Positions 30,759 through 32,936 of a stretch of DNA of 42,005 bases are shown here, one piece after another. Position 1 is the first letter of the stretch; each line of letters opens with the position of its first letter. Location: assembly GCA_005778115.1 (NCBI GenBank), contig SXKJ01000059.1, positions 1-42,005 of the forward strand, given 5' to 3'. The DNA comes from Planctomyces sp. (GTDB lineage Bacteria > Planctomycetota > Planctomycetia > Planctomycetales > Planctomycetaceae). The notes under the pieces are model-generated. The model made no database searches. It was given only the letters and a program-made list of their open reading frames with translations, and had not been told where the DNA came from. The translations under genes were made by a program, and so were the position numbers.

Positions 30759-31610
30759 TCATCGCTTGTAGGCCAACATCGGTCGCAGTTCGCGGACGAT
30801 CGCTGTCAGGTCGCGTTGTGCTCGCAGGACGGCTTGAACGTCTTTGTAGGCCGACGGAGCCTCGTCGCGCAATTGATCGCAACGTTGATCGTCGAACCAG
30901 ACGCCGTGCATCTCGCGCAGCAGTTGCCGCTGCCCGATCTGCTGGCGAGCGACCGAGCGTGGCAACGCCCGTCCGGCTCCGTGTGAACTGGATGACAATG
31001 ACTCCGCACAGCCACGACCGCGCACCAAATAGCTGCGAGTTCCCATCGAGCCAGGAATCAAACCAGGCTTATTGAGCGATGCCGGTTGTGCTCCCTTACG
31101 ATGAACCCAATGCTCGCGACCGAAGTGCTGCTCGCGAATCAGATGATCGTGATCGGTCTCGACAAAGCTGGCCCAATCCAGCCGACAGCCCACCACTTCG
31201 AACAAGACCTCCTCGACGAACAACAACATCGCGCGGCGATTGGCACTCGCGTACCGTCTCGCCCACGCCATGTCGTGGAGGTAATCCTGCCCGGCGTCGC
31301 TGCTGGCTGACAGACACGCCAACCGTTGACGGCTGACTTGTCTGGCTCGATCGAGATGCCATTGCGAAATCGCTTGTCCGATCCCGCGTGAGCCGGAGTG
31401 GATCATCACCCACAACCGATCTTCGGCATCTCGTTGCAACTCCACGAAATGATTGCCGCGTCCCAACGTACCGAGTTGAACTCGGCCATCCCGCTCGGCC
31501 AGCTTCGTCAGCCGGTCGGTGCTGAGCCGTTGCAACGCGACTCGACAGTCGCTCGGCAACGGCTCGGCCAACCAACACGAAACATGATCCGGGAGTTTGC
31601 GATCACGCAT
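30759..31610 (-). CDS. RtcB-family RNA ligase-like protein, apparently missing a central ~100-aa segment
   Basis: QLGTLGRGNHFVEL, VMIHSGSRGIGQAI, WVHRKGAQ, IPGSMGTRSYLVRG, SSSHGAGRALPRS, ELRPMLAYK are RtcB active-site blocks. No DxGCG block is present. ATG at 31610 overlaps the upstream stop (ATGCGTGA). Confidence 0.85.
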   Translation of the reverse strand: MRDRKLPDHVSCWLAEPLPSDCRVALQRLSTDRLTKLAERDGRVQLGTLGRGNHFVELQRDAEDRLWVMIHSGSRGIGQAISQWHLDRARQVSRQRLACLSASSDAGQDYLHDMAWARRYASANRRAMLLFVEEVLFEVVGCRLDWASFVETDHDHLIREQHFGREHWVHRKGAQPASLNKPGLIPGSMGTRSYLVRGRGCAESLSSSSHGAGRALPRSVARQQIGQRQLLREMHGVWFDDQRCDQLRDEAPSAYKDVQAVLRAQRDLTAIVRELRPMLAYKR

Positions 31611-31938
31611 CGCGCACCTCCTCTCCCGAATCCCCGTAGGTTGGGACTCCGTCCCGACCCGCATTGGTGGATTCGCTCGGCCCAGCGAGTTGAAACACCA
31701 ACTCCGGAATCCGACGGCGCGAGATCGACGCGGCCAACTCCGAACGCAACCACGGGGTTGCTCGGCGCAGCTTCTCGTCGATCACCGACCAATGGCTGAG
31801 AGCCTCCTCAGCCCACGATTGCACCGTCACCAGCAATCGCCCCGCGTGAGGCGCAGGCACGACGCTGATGACGCTCAAACCTTGCAAGTCCGCATCTCTG
31901 GCCTCGCCCGTGAGCACGGCTTCGAGCACATGCCACAC
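31603..31938 (-). CDS. RbfA-like (ribosome-binding factor A family) small protein; similarity extends upstream to about 31995 without a canonical start codon
   Basis: QVWHVLEAVLTGEARDADLQGLSVISVVPAPHAGRLLVTVQSW...LRRATPWLRSELAASISRRRIPELVFQLAGP. In-frame upstream: SADSRHRDQNRKTEQLCQQ-. Confidence 0.65.
   Translation of the reverse strand: MWHVLEAVLTGEARDADLQGLSVISVVPAPHAGRLLVTVQSWAEEALSHWSVIDEKLRRATPWLRSELAASISRRRIPELVFQLAGPSESTNAGRDGVPTYGDSGEEVRDA
31636..31665. repeat. Repeat fragment (GTAGGTTGGGACTCCGTCCCGACCCGCATT) within the 3' end of the RbfA-like ORF
   Basis: Resembles one arm of the intergenic inverted repeat at 39605-39669 (gtaggttgggcactcttgcccgacc); contains GGGAC-tcc-GTCCC. Confidence 0.6.
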
Positions 31939-32457
31939 TTGCTGACAGAGTTGTTCCGTTTTGCGATTCTGATCTCGATGCCGTGAATCCGCCGACCGGC
32001 CAACCGCCAGCCGTGGATCAACGCCATCACCTTCTCCAAGTTGTTGACAGAACTCTTTCTAATTCGATTTGCGCGAGTTTGTTCGCGATTTCATGTGTGA
32101 ATTCCCAGTAAGATTTCAAAACGGATTTCGCGCACGGAAACGCAAGCGCAGGCCGGAATCCAAAGCGGAACCGACGCGCAGCCAGACACGTTTCACGCAC
32201 ACACACGTCAGGGTGAGCAACGCGTGTGGAATGGCCTGAAAACAACATCAACGGCACGGGGCGAGCGACAATCGGTTCGCAAAAGCGTCACCGAAAGTCA
32301 GCACGAATCACGGGCGCAATTATTCCCAAGCCCGGACAACACGATTAAAAGATTGGCGTGCCATGATTGATCTCCTCTCGCAAGAGCGAGGGATGATATC
32401 GGCACGTCTGCGAATTGCACTCAGATTTTCCCGAAGATTTCTCAGTGCTGTCAGACA

Positions 32458-32719
32458 TCAGTCGCGATAGACATCGCGTCGGTGGCCGACTTTCACCAGT
32501 GTGATCACCAACGCTCGGTCATGAATCTCGTAGAGGATGCGGTAGTCACCTTGCCGGACGCGGTACTGTTCGTGACCGCTCAGCTTGATGCACCCACTGG
32601 GACGTGGATCACGTCACCAGAGATTGGATTTTGGCGACGACTCGTTGCCGATCCCTGCGCGGTAGTGATTCGATCTCTTTCGCGGCGGACGGCTTAATGA
32701 GCAGCTCATAGCTTGCCAC
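32458..32719 (-). pseudogene. RelE/ParE-type toxin interrupted by a 1-nt frameshift
   Basis: Frame 1: VASYELLIKPSAAKEIESLPRRDRQRVVAKIQSLVT* (stop at 32609). Skipping base 32611 gives DPRPSGCIKLSGHEQYRVRQGDYRILYEIHDRALVITLVKVGHRRDVYRD*. Confidence 0.8.
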
Positions 32720-32936
32720 GGCGTTTCCAGTCCTGCACCACATCCTGGAATGGCAAACTCGGCTCGCTGGCTCGCTCCTCGAAGGCAGCAAGATCGACAG
32801 CGTCTTCCGCGAGCGCACGACGCAGCGCCTCGTTCACGAGGCACGAAACACTTTGATCCAGCTTCGTCGCCTGGCGACGTACACGCTGATGCAGCTTTGG
32901 ATCCAAATAGACGGTGACTCGTTTAGTGGTCGACAT
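32706..32936 (-). CDS. Ribbon-helix-helix (CopG-like) antitoxin
   Basis: MSTTKRVTVYLDPKLHQRVRRQATKLDQSVSCLVNEALRRALAEDAVDLAAFEERASEPSLPFQDVVQDWKRRGKL. Its 3' end overlaps the toxin start (GTG 32719). Confidence 0.8.
   Translation of the reverse strand: MSTTKRVTVYLDPKLHQRVRRQATKLDQSVSCLVNEALRRALAEDAVDLAAFEERASEPSLPFQDVVQDWKRRGKL

Follow-up and report, generated by a model that had tools for sequence, protein, structure and literature searches.

Gene content of the locus

The window, the whole stretch of 42,005 nucleotides from contig SXKJ01000059.1 of a Planctomyces sp. assembly (GCA_005778115.1), carries on its minus strand a gene for an RbfA-like protein followed by one for an RtcB-family RNA ligase. 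Both genes are damaged. The affected locus comprises positions ~30759–32094, and together with the conserved leader extends up to ~32480. It contains the following features:

32095–32480, minus: 5′ leader region, conserved at 76–88% identity in three congeners and present only once in the genome
32320–32364, minus: candidate leader peptide ORF of 14 codons, MARQSFNRVVRAWE; start, stop and near-invariant sequence conserved in four species
31603–32094, minus: RbfA-like gene, disrupted, with the ancestral ATG at 32094, a TAG at codon 12 and the stop TGA at 31605–31603 (alignment with three intact congeners; translation)
32059–32061, minus: in-frame TAG nonsense codon, the 12th codon of the RbfA-like gene, where all three intact congeners have TGG (alignment)
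32011–32034, minus: codons for the conserved EGDGVDPR arm of the N-terminus, severed from the ancestral start (counted from ATG 32094)
31687–31959, minus: KH-type RbfA domain encoded by the RbfA-like gene (PF02033 match; AF2 fold of an intact homologue; Foldseek matches to RbfA)
31616–31622, minus: AGGAGGT, a Shine-Dalgarno-like sequence for RtcB, within the RbfA-like gene (sequence reading; similar motif at other junctions)
31603–31610, minus: overlap of the RtcB start and the RbfA-like stop, ATGCGTGA (read from the sequence; compared junctions)
30759–31610, minus: RtcB-family gene, internally deleted, 283 aa versus 381 in intact congeners (PF01139, 241.8 bits; alignment A4)
31524–31529, minus: the CGGCTC left where 294 nt were deleted in frame; in intact genes the hexamer flanks the lost stretch at both ends
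30981–30983, minus: retained histidine codon of SHGAGR (alignment A4, invariant H308 in the numbering of the L005 protein)

The eight nucleotides shared by the two genes lie exactly where the preliminary description had placed a stop/start overlap. The overlap is recurrent in the intact pairs examined, most of which also have a GGAGG-like Shine-Dalgarno sequence, and is thus not due to chance.

Alignment to the congeners shows that the RbfA-like gene truly begins at ATG 32094, which is followed in frame by the TAG at 32061–32059, and the listed GTG at 31938 is therefore the start of a remnant only. The small ORF scores 27.1 bits (E 5.5e-6) against the Pfam RBFA profile PF02033, below the cut-off of 34.7. 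A stop interrupts the arm region also in the locus L069 (2400–3047), where it separates the DDGVDPR arm from the KH domain, and where the adjoining RtcB keeps its motifs. Programmed recoding was considered for these two cases; the remaining paired loci that were inspected have an uninterrupted frame at this place, and decay is the simpler explanation.

The RtcB gene of the window matches PF01139 with 241.8 bits (E 2.2e-71) over positions 132–425 of 426 only, and so fails a full-length match, while the intact RtcB of L005 spans positions 3–425 with 290 bits. The resemblance to RbfA and RtcB first noticed from the letters is thus borne out for both genes, by a sub-cut-off profile match together with the fold of the family in the case of RbfA, and by a strong match of partial coverage in the case of RtcB. 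Alignment to the congeners shows that 294 nt are missing in frame, with the junction at 31529. The hexamer CGGCTC flanks the missing stretch on either side in G003 and G009, its two copies lying 294 nt from each other, and a single copy is left at the scar in the window, as expected of a deletion between short repeats. The lost segment includes GGDIGCG, a motif kept by the intact members and contributing two metal ligands of RtcB, so that the product should be inactive and the window copy should no longer function as a ligase. The histidine of SHGAGR, the nucleophile in studied RtcBs, is retained. The set of metal-ligand and catalytic motifs (GxDxGCG, GNH, HxGSR, SHGAG) is therefore incomplete in the window copy, with GGDIGCG absent; nearly all intact members retain these motifs, the exceptions being L048 with GNQ for GNH and L055 with AHGAG for SHGAG. 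The source genome contains a second, full-length RtcB (G000:C282) and a canonical RbfA (G000:C185) elsewhere.

Decay and selection within the genus

The pair is intact in three congeneric genomes (G003, G008 and G009), with an RtcB of 381 aa and the conserved leader upstream. In G004 only a C-terminal remnant is found, with the same FtsK gene upstream of it; in G001 there are two fragments with ~70% identity. Among the intact congeners dN/dS is 0.14–0.16 for RtcB and 0.19–0.25 for the RbfA-like gene, and both genes have been under purifying selection within the genus. The corresponding values for the window copy against the congeners are 0.09–0.12 and 0.22–0.29. There is no excess of replacements in the window copy, which fits fresh decay or an assembly artefact; the TAG and the 294-nt deletion may each be a sequencing or assembly error.

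The window locus is what decay has left of a two-gene unit that is intact in other Planctomycetota, and, being broken, it is evidence only for the former presence of the unit. The repair module proposed for this locus in the preliminary description stands as far as the pairing is concerned, which is real and recurrent, and falls as far as the window is concerned, where the copy is broken and the GGDIGCG motif lost.

The leader and its surroundings

A Shine-Dalgarno-like sequence accompanies the 14-codon leader ORF, and the stretch around it is nearly invariant across four species. The putative leader peptide MARQSFNRVVRAWE may control the operon. Covariation over four sequences is too thin for a claim on the structure of the leader RNA, and an Rfam search of the region gave no match above the gathering score.

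Just upstream of the genes, at 32458–32936 of the minus strand, the window contains what is left of a toxin-antitoxin pair, the antitoxin being of the ribbon-helix-helix and the toxin of the ParE type. The reading frame of the toxin is interrupted, with PF05016 matching the second fragment at E 1e-7, and the toxin copy in L065 (G009) is likewise interrupted. In L005 (G003) the end of FtsK lies close to the leader, and the toxin remnant is thus no constant neighbour. The L065 contig, CAMDRI010000014.1, bears the title Candidatus Kuenenia stuttgartiensis, yet both the pair and the leader on it match their counterparts in L004 (G009, of the genus of the window), and the title may be wrong.

The RbfA-like protein is a predicted paralogue of RbfA

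PF02033 matches all 19 RbfA-like family members scanned, and some relatives exceed the cut-off of 34.7 (G356 with 44.4, G061 with 42.7 and 37, G109 with 39.8 and G197 with 39.5). A profile of the family searched against the PDB retrieves RbfA chains (best E 2.4e-6), with no other entry reaching an E below 0.7. The AF2 model of the intact protein from G003 has an overall pLDDT of 70, with most of the core at 80–90, and shows the topology helix-strand-strand-helix-strand of the KH-type RbfA fold. Foldseek gives RbfA structures as its best PDB matches, either of the isolated protein or of RbfA bound to the small subunit. The small ORF is, by sequence and modelled fold, a divergent RbfA paralogue.

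The KH core and the RBFA profile match are shared with canonical RbfA, but the RbfA-like family separates from it in the tree (98/94) and is an extra gene in most genomes: canonical RbfA is found above the cut-off at another site in 17 of the 20 genomes examined, and the other three (G092, G197 and G356), in which the RbfA-like gene alone was found, are incomplete assemblies. A further difference from canonical RbfA is the N-terminal arm with DDGVDPR or a close variant, present in most RtcB-linked members and absent from the trio of family f53 and a few others. The f53 loci (L084, L085 and L086) are sister pairs whose gene order is unchanged.

Not every member of the family is paired. At 18 of the 34 RbfA-like loci compared, most with ~1.5 kb of flank, there is no adjacent RtcB of the linked type, and five of these 18 solo genes have the DDGVDPR arm. 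Solo genes are common in the phylum, so the family is broader than the partnership with RtcB and has uses beyond RtcB delivery; they argue against an obligate RtcB role. In the poorly resolved tree the paired RbfA-like proteins do not form one clade.

Distribution of the pairing

Two outcomes were named at the outset as grounds for abandoning the proposal, a lack of RbfA similarity and absence of the pairing from related genomes. Neither is what was found, the similarity being seen both with the profile and in the fold. Among 392 Planctomycetota genomes, 14 contain an RtcB scoring >380 bits against the linked-RtcB profile, and each of the 14 has an RbfA-like ORF directly upstream; further loci were returned by a scan of contigs with narrow patterns, all with Planctomycetota titles. 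In the next-nearest RtcB lineage (315–330 bits) none of 16 sampled genes has such an ORF upstream. The junctions of the linked pairs nearly always show an ATGA or similar overlap, and most have a GGAGG-like Shine-Dalgarno sequence. The pairing spans ten families of the phylum, and in the tree the linked RtcBs group together in a single clade (98/88), separate from both canonical RtcB and PrfH-linked RtcB2. Matching subclades are seen in the RtcB and RbfA trees for L039+L044, L034+L069 and the f53 trio.

Plasmid and phage RtcBs belong to other lineages; the linked-RtcB profile found no relative on viral contigs, nor the RbfA-like protein on plasmids, and neither protein was matched by the PADLOC models. 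The papers searched contain no description of the pairing, though an earlier mention in the RNA repair survey of Burroughs & Aravind 2016 is possible; those with both RtcB and RbfA are, by title and abstract, not on the pairing.

Comparison with known RtcB systems

The RbfA-RtcB unit resembles RtcB2-PrfH in being a sporadic two-gene unit of an RtcB ligase and a ribosome-binding protein. The start and stop of RtcB2 and PrfH are closely spaced as well (PMC1586002), and broken copies also exist, as in E. coli BW25113, where the system is truncated (PMC9223846). RtcB2-PrfH confers protection from colicin E3: PrfH releases the peptide, and RtcB2 reseals the 16S rRNA (PMC9223846). Accessory genes around RFH-RtcB, including those for TPR and Pol-beta proteins, are listed in a 2019 review.

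The two units differ in that the partner is an RbfA paralogue and not a release factor, and in that it precedes the ligase, whereas PrfH follows it. The RbfA-linked RtcBs lie outside the PrfH-linked RtcB2 branch of the tree, and the intact members, with 127–189 bits, remain below the cut-offs of the PrfH-type RtcB2 profiles TIGR03073 and NF007153 (271.8 and 407). No prfH adjoins the linked rtcB, whose upstream neighbour is the RbfA-like gene; PrfH is above cut-off in only three of 246 genomes, at other loci, and in both PrfH genomes with an RtcB found alongside, the RtcB comes before prfH. The separate clade, different partner and reversed gene order support the original view of a system analogous to PrfH-RtcB2 yet distinct from it. 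One genome, G113, has PrfH with RtcB2 and, elsewhere, an RbfA-linked RtcB (C2:269470-270066 and C2:1930488-1931621).

The ligase family is also shared with RtcBA-type RtcB, the RtcB paired with the RtcA cyclase. Such an RtcB (e.g. that of L106, adjoining rtcA) scores nearer to the RbfA-linked clade than PrfH-linked RtcB2 does, while the RbfA-linked enzymes differ from it in the RbfA-like gene upstream and in forming a separate clade.

Possible function

RbfA is an assembly factor that acts on the central pseudoknot and on the docking of helix 44 into the decoding center (PMC8201178). The tie between an RbfA paralogue and an RNA ligase thus points to 30S subunits damaged at that place. It is hypothesized that the RbfA paralogue, in most members with the added DDGVDPR arm, is translated first and the RtcB-type 3′-phosphate/5′-OH RNA ligase next, coupled through the overlapping stop and start. 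The RbfA-like protein would bind to 30S subunits that are free or damaged, at the RbfA site next to the neck and helix 44, keep these subunits out of translation and present the ribonuclease-cut ends to RtcB, which would then reseal the 16S rRNA. By analogy, the unit would be a 30S-targeted RNA repair system of the RtcB2-PrfH kind with an RbfA paralogue in place of the release factor, a reading with roughly an even chance of being right. We infer for it translational coupling, 30S binding by the paralogue, contact between the two proteins and a 16S rRNA substrate; the step from gene linkage to 16S rRNA repair is, again, about half probable. Only tentatively, and with less confidence, can the unit be extended to a ribosome-repair system so far undescribed, in which the DDGVDPR arm recruits this RtcB lineage to nicked 30S subunits and, in the genus of the window, the leader peptide senses impaired translation and tunes expression.

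Were 30S repair the function, mending of nicked ribosomes would be no single PrfH-specific invention, and RtcB ligases would have acquired, on two or more occasions, a partner that recognizes the small subunit: a release factor in one case and an assembly factor in the other. The pair would then offer a clean two-gene test of an assembly factor doubling as a damage adaptor, and it would serve as a marker in the search for ribosome-cutting toxins acting on Planctomycetota.

The ligase might instead serve general RNA repair, mending toxin-cut tRNA or mRNA with the RbfA-like KH protein as a non-ribosomal RNA-binding helper. It is general knowledge that KH domains bind many RNAs and that RtcB enzymes seal tRNAs, and the toxin-antitoxin remnants just upstream in the window would suit such a role; ParE toxins target gyrase, not RNA. 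However, these remnants are no constant neighbour, FtsK ending near the leader in L005, and the closest solved relatives of the partner are all RbfA, a 30S factor, which makes general repair unlikely. A role in ribosome biogenesis would have the pair act in 16S rRNA maturation, for example in joining or circularizing processed pre-rRNA, since RtcB is generally known to join end types made by some endonucleases. RbfA itself is an assembly factor (PMC8201178). Such a housekeeping role is improbable: it is ill-suited to a sporadic distribution (14 of 392 genomes) and to the decay seen in the window, G001, G004 and L069, and canonical RbfA is retained alongside.

Repair of the 30S subunit has finally to be weighed against co-transcription without a joint function, the RbfA paralogue and RtcB merely sharing an operon. 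The solo RbfA-like genes and the scattering of paired members in the RbfA tree favor a mere shared operon, which is nevertheless quite improbable, as no unlinked member of the linked RtcB clade was seen among those examined, the subclades of the two trees match, and the pairing persists over ten families of the phylum.
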